Below are positions 1,915 through 11,854 of a DNA stretch of 56,092 nt, one piece after another (within the stretch, counting starts at the first letter, position 1; every line of letters begins with the position of its first letter). A program made the translations under genes and the position numbers. The notes under the pieces were generated by a model. The model was given only the letters and a program-made list of their open reading frames with translations, made no database searches and had not been told where the DNA came from. The stretch is from an uncultured Pelagibacteraceae bacterium. Its GTDB lineage: Bacteria > Pseudomonadota > Alphaproteobacteria > Pelagibacterales > Pelagibacteraceae. The stretch lies in the NCBI GenBank assembly GCA_902541315.1, contig CACBQF010000005.1, positions 1 to 56,092 on the forward strand. Reading direction: 5' to 3'.

Positions 1915-4059
1915 TTAAAAATTATTGGTCAGAGATAAATTGGCATTATGATTTTCTTGATTAGAAAAATCATTTTCTAAATTAAACTCTAAATCAAAAC
2001 TATTTAACGTTTTAGAAATTTTAAAATTTGAAGTCATATCTTCTCTAAGATCAAGTGCTAACTCTGTTTCTTTTCTATATAAAAAGCCGGTTGATAATGT
2101 AAATTTATTAATATAGCCGTGTCCTTTGATTTGCTGTCTTTCGTAATCTGCACTAATTGTTAACCCTTGGTGGTGCTTAAAATCTAAACCAAGTCCTGCT
2201 GTGTAAATATCTCTATTTTCGTTATCAGCTTGATACTCAAAACTTTCGCTATCTGATACATAACTTGTTACTACTTTAGAGTTTGAGGTAAACTCTTTAC
2301 CATATTCAAGATTAACTCTAGATTTTACATTTGAGTTTTCTAAATTAAAATCTCTATCAATTAGTACACCTAAAGAAGCCATTAAAGATTTAATATCTTG
2401 ATCATTATAACTAATAGCATTAGTGCCACTTTCAGTATAGCTATCAAGCACTGTATAACTTCCATCAATACTACCTATTGAACTAATAATTAAGTCACCA
2501 TCTTCATATTCTCTACCAATATCAAGTGAACCAAAAACTTGTTTGCCTTCACGGTCACCAGTATGAGTGTTAGTGTTTCCCTCATCTTTCCTTACGATAT
2601 AACTATCTAAATAACTAACTCCAAAAACATGTTTTAAAAAATTCTTGTCTTCTAACCTATTAACCCCATAAACTGATAAACTTAAGGCCTTAGTGTCAAC
2701 TGCAGAACCAAAGGTTCCAACATCAACATCAGTGTTACCTACTCTTACAGCTACTCCTAATATTTGGTCTTTATCCATTTTTCTATCAGCACCTACAGTT
2801 ATACCAAATCCATCTATATCTTGTGCAGAGCTTAAGGAAGTCTCACCAATTTTTCCAAAACTAATACTACCTTCAGTCCATGCTTCCCAGTCATTAGGTA
2901 AAATCTGATCTAACTTTTTAATTGGATTGAATTTAGCTTGAGAAGAACTTGCAACATTATTCGATATTTTCTTAAATAATTCATTTTGAAAGAGCAACTC
3001 TATTTTTTGAGCGCTCGTTTGGTATTTATTTGCTCTTAATATATCTAATCTTTTAAAAGTAGCCACTCTTGTATCTTCAGCAAACTTTTTAGCAGTATTA
3101 ATTTGTGCATCATTTATACCTCTTACATCTTTAATTTTTGGTGGGTCTTCACATCCTGAATTAGTAACTGTAAAAGCACATCTTAAAGTATATTCATTTA
3201 TATCATCACCAGCATTACCTACTATAAACATTTTAGTTCCAGTTGTATTAAAAGCTATACCTTGAGGATTGGTCTCTTGATCAGTAACAACAAACTTTCC
3301 TACATGAGTTACAGTTGATGTTAAATCAAAGCCTACTGATAATGTATATTCATTTACATCATTTCCTGCATCACCTACTATAAACATTTTAGTTCCATCA
3401 TTATTAAAAGTAATACCCCTAGGAACAGTTACTTGACCACTAATGTCAAAACCTGATCCATCTCCATTTATGTCATTGAAAGTTGCAGTTGATAAATCAA
3501 AGCCTGTAGATAGTGTATATACATTTAAATCATCATCAAGATTACCTAAGTAATACATTATCGTTCCGTCATTGTTGAAAGCAATACCTCTAGTTTGCAC
3601 ATCTTGATCACTAATATCAAAACCTGTTCCATTTCCATTTATGTTATCAAAAGTTGCTGTTGATAAATCAAAGCCTGTAGATAAGGTATATGAATTTATA
3701 TCTTTACCAGTATTACCTGATACAAACATCTTGGTTCCATCATTATTAAATTTAATATATTGAGGAGTAAGATCTTGACCACTAACGTCAAAACCTGATC
3801 CATCTCCATTTATGTCATCAAAAGTTCGTGTTGATAAATCAAAACCTGTAGATAAGGTATATGAATTTATATCATTTCCTTCATCACCTACTATAAACAT
3901 CTTGGTTCCATCATTGTTAAAAGCAATACCTCTAGGTTGAGTATCTTGAGTACTAACATCAAAACTATCTACAAAGGTTGCAGCAGCTTGTGCTGAGCTA
4001 ACAAAAGTTAGATTAAAAATTAGAAATATTGAAAGTATTTTCTTAAAATAATTTAACAT
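1915..4059 (-). CDS. Propeller-repeat protein with C-terminal autotransporter-like beta-barrel
   Basis: This is a predicted outer-membrane, surface-exposed protein. The preferred ATG gives a classic signal peptide (MLNYFKKILSIFLIF, ending SSAQA); an in-frame ATG nine codons earlier (4086) is possible. Five repeats of about 52-57 residues follow, each with the core FNNDGTKMF then YTLSTGFDLST, suggesting propeller blades. Then come a helical linker and a C-terminal domain of about 320 residues starting near WEAWTEGSISFG and ending in Phe (LSLTNNF), as outer-membrane barrels do. It is homologous to the protein at 9530-11635. The function and ligand are unknown. It is the only gene in island 1 and lies antisense to the tRNA-Thr repeats. 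Confidence 0.8.
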   Translation of the reverse strand: MLNYFKKILSIFLIFNLTFVSSAQAAATFVDSFDVSTQDTQPRGIAFNNDGTKMFIVGDEGNDINSYTLSTGFDLSTRTFDDINGDGSGFDVSGQDLTPQYIKFNNDGTKMFVSGNTGKDINSYTLSTGFDLSTATFDNINGNGTGFDISDQDVQTRGIAFNNDGTIMYYLGNLDDDLNVYTLSTGFDLSTATFNDINGDGSGFDISGQVTVPRGITFNNDGTKMFIVGDAGNDVNEYTLSVGFDLTSTVTHVGKFVVTDQETNPQGIAFNTTGTKMFIVGNAGDDINEYTLRCAFTVTNSGCEDPPKIKDVRGINDAQINTAKKFAEDTRVATFKRLDILRANKYQTSAQKIELLFQNELFKKISNNVASSSQAKFNPIKKLDQILPNDWEAWTEGSISFGKIGETSLSSAQDIDGFGITVGADRKMDKDQILGVAVRVGNTDVDVGTFGSAVDTKALSLSVYGVNRLEDKNFLKHVFGVSYLDSYIVRKDEGNTNTHTGDREGKQVFGSLDIGREYEDGDLIISSIGSIDGSYTVLDSYTESGTNAISYNDQDIKSLMASLGVLIDRDFNLENSNVKSRVNLEYGKEFTSNSKVVTSYVSDSESFEYQADNENRDIYTAGLGLDFKHHQGLTISADYERQQIKGHGYINKFTLSTGFLYRKETELALDLREDMTSNFKISKTLNSFDLEFNLENDFSNQENHNANLSLTNNF
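3300..3970 (-). repeat. In-gene tandem repeats, 171-bp period
   Basis: Within the propeller region the segments starting at 3479, 3650 and 3821 (AAAGTT...GATAAATCAAA) recur with an exact 171-bp spacing, which is 57 codons. The three central blades are nearly identical at the DNA level, so recent expansion or contraction by recombination is plausible. The outer two blades are more diverged. Confidence 0.85.
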
Positions 4060-4181
4060 TTGCTTTGTATAATAAACAAATTGCATAAATAAAATCGATT
4101 AATTTCCTTCATTTTAATGGATTATAAAAGTTTTTTTTTAATATTTACGAATTACTTTTTGATATTAGCTTATCAAACTCT

Positions 4182-4404: not shown

Positions 4405-5175
4405 TCAATAAGTTTCCCTTCTTAATTGTTCGATTTTAATCTTTTTTTGGAGACTATTATTTTGATCGTATAAGAGATTAAACTTAATCTTTTTATTAGT
4501 TTTTATTATTATGCTCTTAGCATTTCTAACTTCTATATTATCAGCGACTGCACTAATGGGTCTTTTTTTTGAATTAAGATTTTTTATGATGATCTTTGAG
4601 TTATCATTTATAATTTTTCCTTTCCATCGTCTGGGTCTAAAAGGACTGATAGGAGAAATAGATAGCTTTTTTGAATTTAGATTTAATATTGGTCCATGAA
4701 CTGATAGATTATAAGCTGTGCTACCAGCTGGTGTAGATACCAACACTCCATCAGAAACTAATCTTTTGATGATTAATTTAGAACCCTGAGATATTGACAA
4801 GGATGCCGCCTGTCTACTTTGTCTTAAAATTGAAACTTCATTAATAGCAATATGTTTTTTTTTTAAATTATTACTGTTAGTGACTGTCATTTCTAAAGGT
4901 GAAATAGAAATCATTTTTGCTTTTGATAAATTCTTTGTTACATTTTTTGATGAAAACTTATTCATTAAGAAACCATAATTTCCTGAATTAATGCCATAAA
5001 AAATTTTTTTGGAATTTTTATTTTTTTTTAATGTCTGTAGCATAAATCCATCTCCACCTATAACTATTGAGATATCAGATTTTCTTAATTTGCTGTTTTG
5101 TGTAATCTTTAAAAGAGACTTTTTAATTCTTATAGAGTTACGATTTTTATCAGAAATAATCTTAATTTTATTCAT
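4405..5175 (-). CDS. nadK: NAD kinase
   Basis: NAD kinase phosphorylates NAD to NADP in the cytosol. The chosen start (MNKIKIISDK) gives 256 residues. An in-frame upstream extension would run into tRNA-Leu and is rejected. Family motifs are GGDG at residues 40-43, GINSGNYGFLMN, the NE pair in INEVSILRQ, and the glycine-rich loop STPAGSTAYNLS. It starts 2 nt after the 3' end of tRNA-Leu on the same strand, so it is almost certainly made from the same transcript. Its stop codon touches tRNA-Thr. Confidence 0.95.
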   Translation of the reverse strand: MNKIKIISDKNRNSIRIKKSLLKITQNSKLRKSDISIVIGGDGFMLQTLKKNKNSKKIFYGINSGNYGFLMNKFSSKNVTKNLSKAKMISISPLEMTVTNSNNLKKKHIAINEVSILRQSRQAASLSISQGSKLIIKRLVSDGVLVSTPAGSTAYNLSVHGPILNLNSKKLSISPISPFRPRRWKGKIINDNSKIIIKNLNSKKRPISAVADNIEVRNAKSIIIKTNKKIKFNLLYDQNNSLQKKIKIEQLRRETY

Positions 5176-5177
5176 TG

Positions 5178-5263
5178 TGGTGCCCTCGGCCAGACTCGAA
5201 CTGGCACTCCGCAAGCGGCAAGGATTTTAAGTCCTTTGTGTCTACCAATTTCACCACGAGGGC
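5178..5263 (-). tRNA. tRNA-Leu (anticodon TAA)
   Basis: The minus strand gives an 86-nt class II tRNA with encoded CCA. The acceptor GCCCTCG pairs with CGAGGGC, the anticodon loop is CTTAAAA giving TAA, and there is a long variable arm CCGCTTGCGG. nadK follows after 2 nt. Its 5' half and 25 nt of leader are repeated at 9350-9415 on the far side of the restriction-modification genes. Confidence 0.96.
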
Positions 5264-5288
5264 ATTAATGAATTTCATGAGTGTTTAT
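5223..5288 (-). repeat. Direct repeat copy A: tRNA-Leu leader plus 5' half (intact side)
   Basis: This 66-nt segment matches 9350-9415 with two mismatches. It runs from 25 nt before the mature tRNA-Leu 5' end to the 3' side of the anticodon arm. Similarity ends abruptly at both sides. With copy B it brackets the res and mod genes in direct orientation. Confidence 0.92.
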
Positions 5289-5296
5289 TTTAAATT

Positions 5297-5302
5297 ATTA
5301 TA
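5297..5302 (-). promoter_or_regulatory. Candidate -10 box for tRNA-Leu/nadK, at the island edge
   Basis: On the minus strand a perfect TATAAT lies between the res stop codon and the 66-bp repeat. It predicts a transcript start near the repeat edge, about 27 nt before the mature tRNA. No convincing -35 box is seen. If active, it would be a promoter brought by, or formed with, the insertion, replacing the original tRNA-Leu promoter now at 9423-9450. Confidence 0.35.
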
Positions 5303-5317
5303 ATATACAAGTTAAAG

Positions 5318-7525
5318 TTATAAATCTAATGGTTTCCAATTTTCTTTATTTATAATATCTTCACCTTTGCCAATATAATATTTCCAAGCAGCATCTGAAT
5401 AATTATCATTTTCATTTTTAACAACACCACCAAAATATTTGTATTTTTTAATATACTTAATTAATCCATCGCTTTTTGGACCAGCATCAGTACTTTCTAA
5501 TGTTATGCCTCCTTTTGTGTCAAATAAACCTAATTTACCAGATTTTAGTTTTACAATAAAATCTACATAAAAAGGTTCTTCTTTATTGTTAAAAGAATAA
5601 TTTACTGCAAAATTATTTTTTCCAGAGTCACCATTTTTTAACCACCAAGATACTTTGGGACTTCTTTCTAAAAAACTAATGAATTTTTGTTCTGGGTTTG
5701 ATAAATTTTTAAATCTATAACCTTTAACAGCACATTTTTTTAGTTCTGGGTTAAAAGGCTTTGTATCATTGGTAAAAACATAATTTTTTTGAAGCTGAAA
5801 ATCTTTTACATTTACTAATTCATTTTTTTTATATTCAATTTGATTTTTATATTCTGATATTATTTCTGAAATTAATCTTTCAAAATGAATTTTATTAGAA
5901 TTGTCACAAATAATATTTATAATTTTTTTATAATCACTCTGATTTTCATAATTGAAATTTAAGTTTTCTTTGAAAAAATCATAAAATGTTTGTGCAATTG
6001 GATAATAAGATTGAACATCTTTAAATTCATTTAATTCTAAATTTCTTAAAAAGGTATTAAATGTGGCTTGCATATCATCAAGACTTGAGTCTAGGATATT
6101 TTCTGTAGTTTGATCTAGCTCAACCTCTAAACTACTATAGGACCGTTCAATTAATCTCTGTCTTTTTAATGGAGCTGGGTCTTTATCAATTTTTTCTATT
6201 ATTTTATTTTTTGATGCTATGTTAAAGAAAATAGGTTTAAATATTTTCTTCTTTATTCTTGTTTGTCTAAATCTCTTTTTAAAAAAAGATGATAGTTTAA
6301 GTTTACTCGCCTCATTAATCAATTTTCCATTATGAGGAGCCATCATTTCTAACAAATTATCTTTAATTTCATGAGAGGCATTGTTTGTATAAACGTAACT
6401 AGTGTTAAGTTCTTCATCATCATAATGACCCACTTCAGGTTGCGGCATACGCATTATTCTGCCTAAGACTTGAATTGAAAAAGTAACATTATTCCAATGC
6501 CTCAACGTAACAATTATTTGTGCCCTAGGACAATCCCATCCTAAAGCTATAGATTGTTTAAAAATTAAAACCTCTACTTCGTTATCAAATTTTTTCAAAT
6601 TTTTTAGTTCGCGCCTAGGCTCACCAGATAATAACACTTCAAGTTTATTATTATCTAAAGAAATATTGTGATTTTCTTTTAATATTTTTTTTACTTCACC
6701 TTTAATTCTATCTTCTTCATTTGGTGGTTTTGCGGGAAGTTGAATTAAAAGCAGTGGGTTAATGTTAACTCCATTTTTTTTATATAAATCAAATAAAAAT
6801 TTTCTTTTATCTAAGGCAATTTTTATAATTTCTGCATCGCTAGATTTTTCTAAATCTGTTTTGAAATTTCTTTTATTGATTATATTTTTTGAGTCTGGGT
6901 TGATGATCCATTGTTTTTTAATCATTCCTTCAGATTTTACATGCTCTAATTGGACTGTTTCCCTGTCATCTCCATCTCTTGAAGGAGTCGCTGAAACTTC
7001 TATTGTTAAATTAGGTGAAATAATATCTATAACTGTATTAGAATTATCTGTGCCAACACTATCATGTACTTCATCGATAATTAAAATTATTTTTCTTCCT
7101 TCGGCTTTCGTATTTTCAATAAATTTGTCTATGAATATTTCTCCTTCTCTTTCCTCACGTATATTATTTTTAGAACTATTTATACTCGGCCAATTACAAA
7201 AAAAAATTTCATTTGATGAAATCTTTTTTTTATAAATTAGATTTTCCCAGAATGAACATTTTATTGCTTTTGAATCTTTAAAATATTTTTCAAGTTTTTC
7301 TTTACTTTGAGTGTGAAGTTTTCTGGGTGCAAACCAAACAAAAGAAAACTTATTATTGCTTGCATGGTCTTTGATAAACCTTTGAATAAATTCCGCAAGA
7401 ATTATTGTTTTACCTGAGCCGGTTGGTGACTTTAATATTAAAGATTTGTTTCCTATTTCTAATAATTTTTTTGATTTTTCAATTAATCCATTTACTGCAT
7501 TAATTTGATAATTTTTAAGTTGCAT
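5318..7525 (-). CDS. res: Type III restriction enzyme, Res helicase-nuclease subunit
   Basis: Res subunits translocate on DNA with ATP and cut near unmethylated sites in complex with Mod. The superfamily 2 helicase motifs are clear: Walker A SPTGSGKT at residues 33-40, a DEVH box near 150, SATPSRDG near 178 and the motif VI region QVLGRIMRMP near 360. The C-terminus has a PD-(D/E)xK-like nuclease signature, YVDFIVKLKSGKLGLFDTKG, near residue 660. The 735-residue length is somewhat short for Res subunits. It follows mod after 3 nt and ends 30 nt before the tRNA-Leu leader repeat. All key motifs are intact, so the enzyme is probably active. Confidence 0.9.
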   Translation of the reverse strand: MQLKNYQINAVNGLIEKSKKLLEIGNKSLILKSPTGSGKTIILAEFIQRFIKDHASNNKFSFVWFAPRKLHTQSKEKLEKYFKDSKAIKCSFWENLIYKKKISSNEIFFCNWPSINSSKNNIREEREGEIFIDKFIENTKAEGRKIILIIDEVHDSVGTDNSNTVIDIISPNLTIEVSATPSRDGDDRETVQLEHVKSEGMIKKQWIINPDSKNIINKRNFKTDLEKSSDAEIIKIALDKRKFLFDLYKKNGVNINPLLLIQLPAKPPNEEDRIKGEVKKILKENHNISLDNNKLEVLLSGEPRRELKNLKKFDNEVEVLIFKQSIALGWDCPRAQIIVTLRHWNNVTFSIQVLGRIMRMPQPEVGHYDDEELNTSYVYTNNASHEIKDNLLEMMAPHNGKLINEASKLKLSSFFKKRFRQTRIKKKIFKPIFFNIASKNKIIEKIDKDPAPLKRQRLIERSYSSLEVELDQTTENILDSSLDDMQATFNTFLRNLELNEFKDVQSYYPIAQTFYDFFKENLNFNYENQSDYKKIINIICDNSNKIHFERLISEIISEYKNQIEYKKNELVNVKDFQLQKNYVFTNDTKPFNPELKKCAVKGYRFKNLSNPEQKFISFLERSPKVSWWLKNGDSGKNNFAVNYSFNNKEEPFYVDFIVKLKSGKLGLFDTKGGITLESTDAGPKSDGLIKYIKKYKYFGGVVKNENDNYSDAAWKYYIGKGEDIINKENWKPLDL

Positions 7526-7528
7526 TTT

Positions 7529-9331
7529 TTATTTATTCAATAAGTGTTCATATTCACTTATAATAGGTTCTGGATAAGATATTATTTTACTGACATTATT
7601 TAAATCCTCAAACTCATCATCAAAAGTAACATTTCCTAAAGAAAAAATGTAAACAGAAACTTCTTCTTTAAGCTTAGCTAATTCAATTTTTAAGTCATCA
7701 ATATATTCTTCATCGAAAAGAATAGCTGTAAATTTTTTTAAACCTTTGTAAATGGAATAATTTTTATTACTTTTTAATAAATTAAATGTTTCCTCTCTAA
7801 TCTTTATAACCTCTATACTATTTTTGAATAACTTAAATTTACTACTATCCGTAGTATCTTTTTTTTGAAATTCAGTTTTAAAATATCTTAAATTACTTTT
7901 AATATTTGTTATATCTGGAAGTTCTGTGACACCATTTATTGTATTTTTAATCCTTGGATAACAAACTTTTGTGGCTATATCATTATCATTGTTAGTATTT
8001 AAAATAAATCTTCTGTTTCCCCCATCATTTTTATTCATTAACAAAACTGCATGACCCGTTGTTCCTGAGCCTGCGAAAAAATCCAAAATTATTGCATCTT
8101 TTTTATTTTCAACAATTGAGTAGATCGTATCATAAACAGCATAAAGAGATTTTGGAAAATCAAATTTTTCGTTTTTCAAAATTTTTTGAATTATTTTTGT
8201 TCCATACTCTGAGGCATCATATCTGGCTTTTGTATCTAAAGTTTTATTAAATCTGTTTTTTATTTCTTTTTCAATTGAAGGTAGTTTGCTGACATTAGAA
8301 AATATCTTATTTATATCTTTTTTTAAATTTTCTAATGATTGTTTGTAGTACATTGTTGGTCCTAACCAAATAGATTTTCTTGCTCTCTCCTTAGTTAGAC
8401 TTTGAATCGTTATACCATTTCTAGTTTTTTTTGGTCTCAATTCAGGTTTAGTTCTAATATAAGACTCATAACTAATACCCCATTTTTTTTCATTTCCACG
8501 TGAGTCGATAGGCCAAACTTCGTATAAATCTTTTTTAACTTTATTGATTTTTTCCTTAGGGTGATAGTCTTCTGGAGGGACTTTACCAACATCTACAATT
8601 TTCTCATCTTTAACATAGATTGGATAAAAAAGATTTTTTGAAGTATTTCTATCTGATGCAGAGCCTGTTTGCATAAAATCACGCCACTCTGGTTCCTCTA
8701 ATTTTCTTTTTGAAATTAAATCTTGCTCACTGCCTTTTTCATTACTGGGAATACAAAAGTACATATATTCATGAGTTACACCAAAATTTGTTCCCTGTTG
8801 CGATCTCGGATTATGTTGTATTGGAATTAAATAAATAAAATACTCTGCAAACACCTCCTCAAGTAATAATCCTAATCTATTAACCTCATGTTGATCTATT
8901 GCACAAATCAACACCCCATCCTTTTTTAGTAGTTCTTTTGAAGCTTGAAGTCTTGTGGACATCATTTGTATCCACGCACTGTGTCTATATTTATGTTCTT
9001 TATTTACATAATCATTATTATATCTCCAATCATTACTACCTGTATTGTAAGGTGGGTCGATATAAATTACATCTATACGTTCTTTATGAGTGGTATTCAA
9101 GATTGATACTGCATGATAATTATCACCCTCGATAATCAGATTAACTGGTTTATTGTCATCTTTTGAAATATTTAATTTTTCATTTTCTTTTAGATAAAGA
9201 AAATTTTCTTTAAATTCCTTAACAACATTTTCTTCCTCAATTTCCCAATTGAGACCATATTTTTTTCTATTTTGTAGATTTTTAATTTCATTAATTAAAT
9301 CTTCTTTTGTATAATTTGAATAGTCTTTCAT
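7529..9331 (-). CDS. mod: Type III DNA methyltransferase, Mod subunit (adenine-specific, beta class)
   Basis: The Mod subunit recognises the target site and methylates adenine. The catalytic motif DPPYNTGS lies near residue 93, and the SAM-binding motif LDFFAGSGTTGHA comes later, near residue 418. That is the beta-class order, with the target-recognition region between them. The 600-residue length is typical. The start codon lies only 18 nt downstream of the orphan tRNA-Leu 5' half, so the message would carry a tRNA half as its 5' leader. It is followed directly by res. No frameshift is seen. Confidence 0.92.
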   Translation of the reverse strand: MKDYSNYTKEDLINEIKNLQNRKKYGLNWEIEEENVVKEFKENFLYLKENEKLNISKDDNKPVNLIIEGDNYHAVSILNTTHKERIDVIYIDPPYNTGSNDWRYNNDYVNKEHKYRHSAWIQMMSTRLQASKELLKKDGVLICAIDQHEVNRLGLLLEEVFAEYFIYLIPIQHNPRSQQGTNFGVTHEYMYFCIPSNEKGSEQDLISKRKLEEPEWRDFMQTGSASDRNTSKNLFYPIYVKDEKIVDVGKVPPEDYHPKEKINKVKKDLYEVWPIDSRGNEKKWGISYESYIRTKPELRPKKTRNGITIQSLTKERARKSIWLGPTMYYKQSLENLKKDINKIFSNVSKLPSIEKEIKNRFNKTLDTKARYDASEYGTKIIQKILKNEKFDFPKSLYAVYDTIYSIVENKKDAIILDFFAGSGTTGHAVLLMNKNDGGNRRFILNTNNDNDIATKVCYPRIKNTINGVTELPDITNIKSNLRYFKTEFQKKDTTDSSKFKLFKNSIEVIKIREETFNLLKSNKNYSIYKGLKKFTAILFDEEYIDDLKIELAKLKEEVSVYIFSLGNVTFDDEFEDLNNVSKIISYPEPIISEYEHLLNK

Positions 9332-9349
9332 TAAAAAAATATATTTAAA

Positions 9350-9415
9350 GATTTTAAGTCTTTTGTGTTTACCAATTTCACCACGAGGGCATTAATGAAT
9401 TTCATGAGTGTTTAT
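9350..9415 (-). pseudogene. Direct repeat copy B: orphan tRNA-Leu leader plus 5' half
   Basis: The segment matches 5223-5288 with two mismatches and then runs straight into the upstream region of mod, without a variable arm, T arm or acceptor 3' strand. It cannot make tRNA. One mismatch changes the anticodon stem and the other the D arm, consistent with decay after the intact tRNA was rebuilt elsewhere. Confidence 0.9.
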
Positions 9416-9422
9416 GCCAATA

Positions 9423-9450
9423 TTTATAATTTAACAAGATGAATAAGTAA
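9423..9450 (-). promoter_or_regulatory. Candidate original tRNA-Leu promoter, now upstream of mod-res
   Basis: On the minus strand TTACTT (9445-9450) and TATAAA (9423-9428) are 16 nt apart. The predicted start lies about at the edge of the 66-bp repeat, so the repeat would begin at the +1 of the tRNA transcript. The word AATTATAAAT here also occurs at the sodB -10. Supported by similarity only. Confidence 0.4.
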
Positions 9451-9512
9451 ATTTTTTTTATTTTATCTCCCTAGTTTCTAGTCTAGTTCTAGTTATCCCA
9501 TATTATCCTATT
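9438..9512. repeat. Direct repeat downstream of the second autotransporter (copy of the sodB downstream region)
   Basis: The first 37 nt (GATGAATAAGTAAATTTT onward to CTAG) match 11730-11766 with one mismatch. Weaker similarity, including AGTTATCC and ATCCTAT, continues for about another 38 nt. The two copies lie just downstream of the second autotransporter gene and of sodB respectively, so they bracket the autotransporter gene in direct orientation. Confidence 0.8.
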
Positions 9513-9529
9513 AAGTTTTTGTGAATTTG

Positions 9530-11635
9530 CTAAAATGTATTTACAATTTCTAGGGTTGCACCATATTCAGGTATTTGATTCATCAAACTATAATTCGAAC
9601 TCATTCTGATATCAAAACCATTTAAATCTCTCTTATAACTTAAAGATGCTTTGTCATTATCTAAAGTCATAGCATATTCAATATCGTCTGTTGGTATGTA
9701 ACCAAATCCTAAATATAAAGTATCGCTATAAGCATTATCACTTTGATTTCTCTCATAAATAGTCATTATTGAAAAACCATTATCGGTTACTAAATCAAAT
9801 CCAATATTTGCTCTTAAATTTTTAGAATCTTGATCAATTGATTTTGTATATTCTTTAGTTTCCGATAGGTAACGGTATGTTGCATCTGAAGACGGACTAA
9901 AATCTACTCCAAGCTCTAATCCACCATTTGGTTTAAAAGTAAAAGTATTAAAATTTAAAATGTCACTGATGGTAAAACCAGCAGATATCATTCCAGTTTC
10001 AATTGTTTGAGCTTTGTAAACTAAGGCTGCAGTACCGTTTTCTCTATATTTGGATAATTCTGTATAACTTAAATCAATTCTTAAATTAGGAGTAATATTA
10101 AAATCTTCTTTTTTATATGTTGTTAAGTAATTAAGTGAACCAAATATTTGTGCACCATCTCTCTCTCCAGTTCTTGTACTTCCTCCCCCTTTCCTAATAT
10201 GATCAGTCTTTAAAGTGCTCACTCCAATGATACCTTCAGTAAATTTTTCATCATCATGAGGAAAAGTTCCATAAACAGATAAACTAAAAGACTCAGTATC
10301 TAAATTAGTCCCAGATGTACCGACATCAACATCATCATTACCAAATCTAAGAGCATAACCGTATAATCTATTTTTGCTTATCTTTTTATCCATGCCAAGT
10401 GTAATACCTTTGGTATTAATTTTTTTAGATGATGAAGTAGATGTATCTCCAGTTCTACCAATACTTACACTACCCTCACTCCAAAATGACCAATCATCTG
10501 ATAATTTGTCTAGAACTTCATTTGTTTTATTTGATATAGGAATAATGTTAGAAAGCGATGCCACCATTGAATTAGAAAAGTTTAATCTAATATTTTGGTT
10601 ACTTAATTGATCATTGGTTCTATGTCTTCTTAACCAATACATACGGTTAAGAACTGGAGTACTTGCTTGAATAGCAATTTGTTTTGCTGTTGCAGTTTGA
10701 GACTCGATTGAGCTTAAAATATCTTTACCCTCATCAGAAGTAGTAATTGGATCGTCACAAGCACCATCAATTACACTCCAATTACAACTTAGGTTAAATT
10801 CATGAATTTTATTATCGTCATTATCAATGATAAACATTTTACTTCCATCATTACTAAACACAACTTCTCTTGGCTCTTCACTTACAGAACTTACATCAAA
10901 AGTACCTTCAAGGGATAAAGTAGAAACATCATAAGGTGTAGTTAATTCAAACTGAAAAATCTTATCTTCATCTTCTTTACTATTAATGGTATACATTTTA
11001 GTACCATCGTAATTAAAAGTAACTCCATCTATGTGATTTTGAAAAGAAATTAGGTCTTCAGTATTAAGTTGAGTAACTCCTGAGCTAAGATCAAATGCTG
11101 TATCTAGTGAAAATTCATGAACACGCACTTGTAAATTATTTCCTACACCAGCAATAAACATTCTGGTACCATCATTATTAAATGCAATTGAATTAGCTCT
11201 TTGTTCTTTACCAATGAGACTATATTCGCCATCAAATGTAGCAGTTGAAACATCAAATGCAGTACTTAGTGACCAGTAATCTACTGTCCTTCTACCATGA
11301 TGGTTAACAATAAACATTTTTGTTCCATCGTTATTGAACACTACTTGTGTTGGTAAATGAGAGGCATCACCTCCACTTACATGTACTACTTTAGTATTAT
11401 TTACGGTTGCCGTTGAAATGTCATATGCGGTAGTTAATATATGTTCGATAACTGCATCGACTTCTAATTCACTTCTTAAAGTATACATTTTTGTTCCATC
11501 ATTATTGAACGTTAATCCAAAATAATCGGATGCCTCGATTGATTTGCTTTGCACAAAGGTTGGCTCCGCTATAGCTTTAGAAAAAAATAAAGCTAAAAAA
11601 AATACAATGTAATGAATTTTATAAATATTTTTCAC
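9530..11635 (-). CDS. Propeller-repeat protein with C-terminal autotransporter-like beta-barrel (paralogue)
   Basis: A 701-residue predicted surface protein. The signal peptide is MKNIYKIHYIVFFLALFFSK ending near AIAEP. Five divergent blade-like repeats follow, each centred on FNNDGTKM or FSNDGSKM (roughly residues 30-290). Then come a linker and a barrel domain starting near WSFWSEGSVSIGRTGDT and ending with Phe (EIVNTF). The barrel aligns with the protein at 1915-4059, including the shared DVDVGT and LSVYG words, while the repeats differ more. It lies between two copies of the sodB downstream region and has a promoter-like copy of the sodB upstream region. The ligand is unknown. Confidence 0.8.
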   Translation of the reverse strand: MKNIYKIHYIVFFLALFFSKAIAEPTFVQSKSIEASDYFGLTFNNDGTKMYTLRSELEVDAVIEHILTTAYDISTATVNNTKVVHVSGGDASHLPTQVVFNNDGTKMFIVNHHGRRTVDYWSLSTAFDVSTATFDGEYSLIGKEQRANSIAFNNDGTRMFIAGVGNNLQVRVHEFSLDTAFDLSSGVTQLNTEDLISFQNHIDGVTFNYDGTKMYTINSKEDEDKIFQFELTTPYDVSTLSLEGTFDVSSVSEEPREVVFSNDGSKMFIIDNDDNKIHEFNLSCNWSVIDGACDDPITTSDEGKDILSSIESQTATAKQIAIQASTPVLNRMYWLRRHRTNDQLSNQNIRLNFSNSMVASLSNIIPISNKTNEVLDKLSDDWSFWSEGSVSIGRTGDTSTSSSKKINTKGITLGMDKKISKNRLYGYALRFGNDDVDVGTSGTNLDTESFSLSVYGTFPHDDEKFTEGIIGVSTLKTDHIRKGGGSTRTGERDGAQIFGSLNYLTTYKKEDFNITPNLRIDLSYTELSKYRENGTAALVYKAQTIETGMISAGFTISDILNFNTFTFKPNGGLELGVDFSPSSDATYRYLSETKEYTKSIDQDSKNLRANIGFDLVTDNGFSIMTIYERNQSDNAYSDTLYLGFGYIPTDDIEYAMTLDNDKASLSYKRDLNGFDIRMSSNYSLMNQIPEYGATLEIVNTF

Positions 11636-11722: not shown

Positions 11723-11803
11723 AATTCATGATGAATAAGTAAATTTTTTTTATTTTATCTCTCTAGATCCGAGAATTATCTGAGTTATCCTATAAGATCC
11801 TAT
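11701..11803. repeat. Composite repeat between sodB and the second autotransporter
   Basis: Positions 11701-11738 match the sodB upstream region at 12510-12547 with two mismatches. Positions 11730-11803 match the region downstream of the autotransporter gene at 9438-9512. The shared overlap is GATGAATAA. The segment therefore looks like a junction between a copied sodB promoter region and the sodB downstream region. Confidence 0.8.
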
Positions 11804-11854
11804 AATAATATGATATAAACTCTAGGTATTGCACATGGCAACAGAACGCTCCAT

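Follow-up and report, generated by a model that had tools for sequence, protein, structure and literature searches.

The Islander collection lists 3919 genomic islands at transfer RNA (tRNA) genes, of which 3760 are bounded by a 3' tRNA fragment and 159 by a 5' fragment, and the part of its description used here names the anticodon loop as a standard crossover subsite of such islands (PMC4383910). Its screen requires an integrase gene and a length of at least 2 kb, and the same part mentions four tandems of three or more islands (PMC4383910). Islands of the 5'-fragment kind are already known but rare. Here we analyze a 4.1-kb island carrying adjacent mod and res genes, which lies at the tRNA-Leu(UAA) gene of an uncultured Pelagibacteraceae bacterium of the SAR11 group, in a stretch of 56,092 nt (contig CACBQF010000005.1 of assembly GCA_902541315.1) that we call the window. 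It shares with the Islander islands an intact tRNA and a displaced tRNA fragment at its bounds, and the orientation of the fragment and its side relative to the intact tRNA are those expected for a tRNA-integrated genomic island. The SAR11 inserts found at this gene differ from the Islander islands, as that source portrays them: their fragment is a 5' one, hardly any has a recognizable integrase, and they are often shorter than 2 kb and often in tandem. The mod–res island itself does not pass the own-integrase filter of Islander. We consider it probable that the island is an integrative insert that crossed over in the anticodon loop, placed the displaced tRNA promoter before mod and rebuilt the tRNA.

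Other described systems resemble the locus in part. A pelagiphage-related genome with a 46-bp match to tRNA-Leu appears in the portion of the source drawn on here (PMC3861242), and attachment of pelagiphages to tRNA-Leu is likewise known. Tycheposons and marine phage satellites also integrate at tRNA genes of marine bacteria with streamlined genomes and carry cargo (PMC10872708, PMC11389934). The mod–res insert is unlike tycheposons: it has no recombinase, integrase or replication gene, its only long open reading frames (ORFs) being mod and res, and one of the other 89 inserts collected below has an integrase. CALIN integron cassettes, as far as the excerpt goes, similarly form arrays of small, diverse and mostly same-strand units near a promoter, with the recombinase acting in trans (PMC11389934). 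The SAR11 inserts, in contrast, use half of a tRNA as their site, and each appears to bring a new upstream region in place of one common promoter. In tRNA-dependent lysogeny, too, an element integrates into a tRNA gene and supplies the tRNA function; in the passages of that report used here a whole phage tRNA complements the broken gene, whereas the SAR11 gene appears to be rebuilt from an insert-borne 5' half (PMC10865867). Among the titles and abstract openings listed by searches of an open-licence library, none describes SAR11 inserts that lack an integrase, match in their end words and stand in tandem on the 5' side of the tRNA.

The initial annotation described a Mod/Res-type island inserted at tRNA-Leu and flanked by a 66-nt repeat with two mismatches that covers the tRNA-Leu leader and 5' half. 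The gene families, the repeat and the empty sites bear this out. Within the window, BLASTN aligned copy A (5223–5288) with copy B (9350–9415), both on the minus strand, at 64 of 66 positions without gaps (E 1.3e-28); the match extends more weakly to 9347 with a third mismatch. These copies are the sole two matches at E ≤0.001 in the 1.03-Mb genome, which is 84% complete. The repeat consists of a 25-nt leader followed by tRNA-Leu from its first base into the anticodon arm. In copy B, the same 25-nt leader is followed by the 5' half of the tRNA, which extends past the anticodon loop into the 3' strand of the anticodon stem.

Comparison with insert-free genomes, set beforehand as the check on the boundaries, found six related loci with an empty site (L034, L035, L041, L043, L054 and L104), whose boundaries agree with those proposed and provide no refutation. 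In the empty loci an autotransporter gene, an end motif, the promoter, the leader and the half-tRNA continue directly into an intact tRNA-Leu. The left flank of the window aligns to them through tRNA index 38 (counted from 0), the last anticodon-loop base, and the right flank aligns from the base after index 38, the flank in L054 and L104 being interrupted further downstream. These alignments indicate that the host promoter left with copy B and that the 5' half of the working tRNA is insert-borne, as the initial annotation had supposed when it set the old promoter and a tRNA half ahead of mod and had the insert rebuild the 5' part of the tRNA. The intact tRNA-Leu(UAA) (5178–5263, minus strand) combines a 5' half from the insert with a 3' half from the host. 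The insertion point is evidently the anticodon loop (5225–5231, minus strand), a crossover zone to which the right edges of displaced copies also point. In L033, the nearest relative, this point is occupied by a different insert, of 4.5 kb.

The promoter beside copy B is, by these alignments, the ancestral tRNA promoter. Its −10 element, TATAAAT (9422–9428, minus strand), precedes the intact tRNA-Leu identically in the five empty-site genomes examined for it, and its −35 element, TTTACT (9446–9451, minus strand), was identified from intact copies. Among 106 canonical intact tRNA-Leu copies the −10 is exact in 104 and the −35 in 96. Both elements now stand intact in front of mod, and the start predicted from TATAAAT falls near 9415, which is the edge of the repeat, as had been proposed. 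At the other end, the TATAAT noted earlier is present at 5297–5302 (minus strand), with TTTATA (5319–5324) 16 nt upstream; it was presumably brought by the insert and may be the new promoter of the rebuilt tRNA-Leu. Its distance to the tRNA nearly equals that of the old −10, and the DNA upstream of copy A is not the canonical promoter. The region has 29 patterns of the TATAAT plus TTTATA type where shuffles predict 29.8, and the telling feature of this TATAAT is therefore its position alone. The surrounding 30 nt occur in one of 300 genus genomes, the window's own, with up to 3 mismatches allowed.

Type III restriction-modification systems methylate, and cleave in an ATP-dependent manner, at a short asymmetric site. 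The mod gene (7529–9331, minus strand; 600 aa) has an N6_N4_Mtase domain with DPPY and FAGSGT motifs, identified with Pfam and PADLOC. Searches of PDB sequences matched it to Mbo45V (2.8e-44), another Mod (2.8e-29), EcoP15I (1.5e-21) and, weakly, CcrM (2.7e-5). The adjacent res gene (5318–7525, minus strand; 735 aa) has ResIII and helicase domains according to Pfam and PADLOC, weak type III Res matches in PADLOC and a C-terminal motif, DFIV-FDTK, which we take to be PD-(D/E)xK-like. Its sole sequence match among solved structures is a Dicer-related helicase (E 0.0009). In this match, and in its length of 735 aa, Res departs from the type III references EcoP15I and Mbo45V, which otherwise share with the island the adjacency of mod and res, the Mod similarity and a Res with helicase and nuclease-like parts. 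Both genes are intact ORFs of the expected families. The system appears to be of the type III kind, given a Mod adjacent to a Res with helicase and nuclease-like motifs, with the Res assignment resting on moderate scores, and we lean towards an active enzyme. A further ORF of 157 aa lies antisense to res between the repeat copies. The start of mod lies 18 nt from the 66-nt repeat, the spacing given in the initial annotation. Relatives of mod are rare, occurring in 3 of 300 genus genomes, including that of the window. In G029, mod directly follows a right-end motif resembling the autotransporter end, apparently in the same slot, and its contig has no half-tRNA. In G151, mod is part of an insert of 4.5 kb that has a half tRNA-Ser(UGA) at its boundary. 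A pattern scan of viral contigs found no mod relative.

The same tRNA is a recurrent target. We compiled two sets of loci, with ORFs of at least 60 aa taken mechanically and without gene calls, and with displaced copies ending before tRNA index 34 excluded from the counts. Set 1 comprised the window and 80 of 127 other matching genomes, picked by match quality and contig room and, for several, by a visible extra copy or a split between the tRNA and nadK. It yielded 58 inserts in 45 of 81 loci, a frequency that this selection overstates since it was made partly by visible copies. Set 2 comprised 40 loci chosen mostly by match rank, a few (such as G555, G344, G271 and G568) despite a short or low-ranked tRNA match; one stretch, L190, contained no tRNA-Leu(TAA) and was dropped, and the 39 usable loci yielded 32 inserts in 21. 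Pooled, there are 90 inserts, with a median length of 2.5 kb, in 66 of 120 loci: one in 45 loci, two in 18 and three in tandem in 3. Inserts also occur in two single-contig genomes, L153 and L154. The displaced half ends at tRNA index 38–43 (counted from 0) in 56 of 58 inserts of set 1 and 31 of 32 of set 2, and neither set contained a half-bearing copy downstream of the tRNA or on the opposite strand.

The cargo is diverse, the 162 proteins of set 1 forming 119 clusters. Pfam domains in the 40 proteins scanned include type I restriction subunits, GmrSD, a pilin-type N-terminus, autotransporter domains, ABC and TRAP transporters and peptidases. For 92 cargo representatives, PADLOC matched 187 models, the best 25 with 2–3 members each and mostly redundant type I specificity models; PHROGs gave 93 families, of which, among the best 25, four had two members and the others one. 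Cargo coding lies on the tRNA strand for 87% of its length (209,163 versus 30,504 nt; 90% in set 1, 83% in set 2), compared to 56% in control upstream DNA (651,354 versus 518,958 nt). The first ORF is on the tRNA strand in 74 of the 89 inserts with ORFs (binomial p 8e-8 against the control rate, uncorrected for relatedness).

Most inserts also share their ends. A conserved left end of ~165 nt follows the half-tRNA in 44 of 58 inserts of set 1, in which the model was built, and in 24 of 32 of set 2. Inspected by eye, it consists of AGTC-type repeats ~10 bp apart, followed by a 9-bp word repeated at 11-bp spacing. The word pair is specific to each insert and recurs at its own right end. Among inserts with the repeat found at both ends (36 of 58 and 18 of 32), the words of the two ends match at ≥8/9 in 30 of 36 in set 1, where shuffles gave a mean of 3.4 and a maximum of 11 in 2000, and in 17 of 18 in set 2 (mean 3.0, maximum 9 in 5000). 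In L081 the left and right ends are joined through one word pair with no cargo between them, apparently an emptied insert. The left-end pattern GACACAAAGGACTTAAAAGNCRAGGGAT occurs in at least 120 stretches of genome contigs, and the 80 titles listed were all Pelagibacteraceae, Pelagibacterales or Candidatus Pelagibacter, on which basis we take the source of the window for a SAR11 bacterium. Exact scans of viral contigs with three left-end patterns and one right-end pattern gave no match. The conserved left end is absent from 22 of the 90 inserts, among them that of the window and a 2178-bp insert described below.

PF00589 matches, mostly one gene of ~305–326 aa that we took for a Xer recombinase, occur in 109 of 151 genomes, and among the 90 inserts a recognizable integrase is present in one, the 8.8-kb G120 element (PF00589 coordinates compared by eye). 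Relatives of this integrase, itself counted, are found in 6 of 399 genomes. The integrase genes of G120, G168 and G202 begin within ~150 nt of a half-tRNA-Leu at the hotspot site. In G120 and G168 the element shows the AGTC left arm and words that also occur in integrase-free inserts (ACCAGCAC, ACTAGAAAC). In the G202 element the model detects no AGTC arm, and the word is a different one; this integrase element stands in tandem with a canonical insert in L149. Two of three integrase-bearing elements therefore share arms and words with integrase-free inserts, which makes mobilization in trans likely. A G120 integrase match was absent from phage records, and in viral contigs its pattern picked out two stretches, with no confirmed relative. 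The G120 element (L103 5613–13298) also encodes a 766-aa protein that, among eight proteins scanned with Pfam, matches DUF5906 and an archaeo-eukaryotic primase domain. With an integrase and a primase-like protein it resembles marine phage satellites and tycheposons.

Pelagiphages have a corresponding site. HTVC105P, HTVC109P and S35-C6 (Pelagivirus) have an attachment site made of the tRNA-Leu(UAA) 5' half beside the integrase, two of the three with the leader: in HTVC105P and S35-C6, 58 nt of leader and tRNA half lie between the integrase and RNA polymerase genes, and HTVC109P has a diverged 40-nt tRNA half (92.7%) at the same gene interval. The presence of the integrase suggests that these phages are temperate. 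They differ from the inserts in their genomes of ~41–43 kb, and the AGTC-type left arm was not seen in the two phage attachment (attP) regions read. Other matches in phage records (best 40 of 238, 30 of 263 and 15 of 118) were mostly annotated tRNA-Leu genes of unrelated phages. In G072 (L127 6150–7358) a tRNA-Leu that lacks its first 30 bases is immediately preceded by an integrase gene, and an ORF that we take to be terminase-like lies further upstream; this may be a phage junction at which the tRNA is left unrepaired. The likely helpers of recombinase-less inserts are pelagiphages and integrase-bearing elements that use this attachment site, and we regard mobilization of the canonical inserts in trans by such elements or phages as quite likely.

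The boundaries, empty sites, recurrence, polarity and common arms and words can be read from the sequence and point to the following course. An insert would recombine with tRNA-Leu(UAA) within the anticodon loop, so that the host promoter, leader and tRNA 5' half end up on its far side, and the tRNA would be rebuilt from the 5' half of the insert and a new −10 box. The SAR11 inserts would in this respect be the mirror image of ordinary tRNA islands, each bringing an upstream region and a 5' half, and each arrival would therefore put the previous promoter before the new cargo. Within this scheme the window insert is atypical. No canonical left end was matched by model search after copy B, no end-word pair was found, and PF00589 had no match in the window's own genome (84% complete). 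It does have the remaining canonical features, a half ending at the anticodon loop or stem and cargo on the tRNA strand. The missing ends would fit an origin by homologous or illegitimate recombination, or by local duplication of the leader and half-tRNA, with no site-specific recombinase involved; so would the facts that the common part of the window insert stops at the inferred transcription start and that no other of 300 genus genomes has its right end. We consider this origin unlikely, given that displaced copies in both sets nearly always end with the anticodon loop or a few bases beyond it, the different insert of L033 at the same point, and the existence of integrase-bearing elements and phages with this attachment site. 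An assembly or amplification artefact that joined unrelated DNA at a repeated tRNA fragment might be suspected from the many draft genomes, the listed titles being isolates named AG-..., SAG or MAG; AG- names denote single-cell genomes. This is hardly credible, however, for inserts that occur in the single-contig L153 and L154 and on numerous contigs, never change orientation and have their own words in agreement at both ends.

The simplest transcription of mod–res would be from the displaced promoter, with the half-tRNA as 5' leader, and we put this at an even chance. The anatomy of the displaced promoter fits such a takeover, and in seven inserts a same-strand first ORF starts within 45 nt of the half, which leaves little room for another promoter. 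The somewhat less probable alternative is an ordinary tRNA island with no takeover, in which mod–res uses its own promoter or read-through from the autotransporter gene and the half-tRNA is a scar. A TATATT lies 6 nt before the mod ATG, making a nearly leaderless message conceivable. A pattern scan found no promoter-like site on the mod strand between the displaced promoter and mod; this negative carries little weight, since the displaced tRNA promoter likewise escapes the scan. A scan of 5100–9700 found no terminator.

Several observations across the hotspot weigh against a takeover. Most inserts are roomy enough for a promoter before the first ORF: 58 of the 74 same-strand first ORFs begin 140–280 nt from the half, and sites resembling TATAAT are concentrated behind the word pair. 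Among 18 displaced copies in decay, the −10 had changed at 5 of 126 sites and the half-tRNA at 66 of 702 (Fisher p 0.055), no clear difference in retention; the −35 changes more (0.167 per site), and inserts whose first ORF faces the opposite way show the −10 trend, if anything, more strongly. The first ORF is on the opposite strand in 15 of the 89 inserts with ORFs, the mod relative of G151 points away from its tRNA-Ser, and the bias in cargo orientation could reflect other constraints. The intact −10 and −35 before mod and the seven close first ORFs argue the other way. Two further candidates were set aside. No intrinsic terminator formed by the half-tRNA was found before mod, and the leader folds no better than shuffles (z 0.51). 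Copy B has a compensatory change in its anticodon stem, which was dropped as a sign of selection, as it concerns one base pair, one side of which may be insert-derived.

SAR11 is among the most abundant marine bacterial groups; its genomes are streamlined and how they gain genes is little understood. One mappable site where small cargo inserts stack (21 of 39 loci in the less selected set) offers a concrete place to measure gene flow, and indicates where rare restriction systems lie: of the three mod genes in 300 genus genomes, one is at this slot, one (G029) follows an insert-end motif apparently at the same slot, and one (G151) is in a tRNA-Ser-bounded insert. A broader proposal is that SAR11 captures genes at tRNA-Leu(UAA) in an integron-like way, with integrase-free inserts moved in trans by word-sharing satellites or phages and stacking on the 5' side, each replacing the tRNA promoter and inheriting the old, strong and constitutive one; we hold this tentatively, at slightly less than an even chance. 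The promoter hand-over, if real, would explain immediate expression of newcomer genes.

Older inserts appear to lie beyond copy B. The stretch 9392–9511 (minus strand) matches the canonical right end of an autotransporter-bearing insert, with its word pair, GGGAGATAA, promoter and leader (nhmmer E 1.5e-31). The autotransporter-domain gene beside it (9530–11635, minus strand; Pfam) would be the cargo of this older canonical insert, whose right end sits at copy B, and autotransporter-domain cargo also occurs in L085. A remnant right end of a still older insert (11727–11804, minus strand; nhmmer E 3.6e-14) lies beside a gene that is presumably superoxide-dismutase-like. The window has two autotransporter-domain genes (1915–4086 and 9530–11635), one on either side of the tRNA-Thr/nadK/tRNA-Leu stretch, and their repeated N-terminal parts look similar.

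An insert of 2178 bp, nearly constant and with two opposite-strand genes, one of them for a HAD hydrolase, occurs in L047, L058, L059, L061, L070 and L164 with variously decayed half-tRNAs; in all six only a few nt separate the half from the end of an opposite-strand gene, a further point against a general promoter takeover. From L104 to L112 the gap between tRNA-Leu and nadK ranges over ~0.5–5 kb, marking a second variable slot on the 3' side, and among the 81 loci a tRNA-Val(GAC) lies downstream of tRNA-Leu only in L085, L086, L088 and L102. The tRNA-Ser(UGA) genes of G151 (L128 9465–9554) and G326 (L148 5455–5544) have a displaced 5' half 4.5 and 9.0 kb upstream, ending at index 38, and the G326 stretch contains a relative of the G120 integrase.

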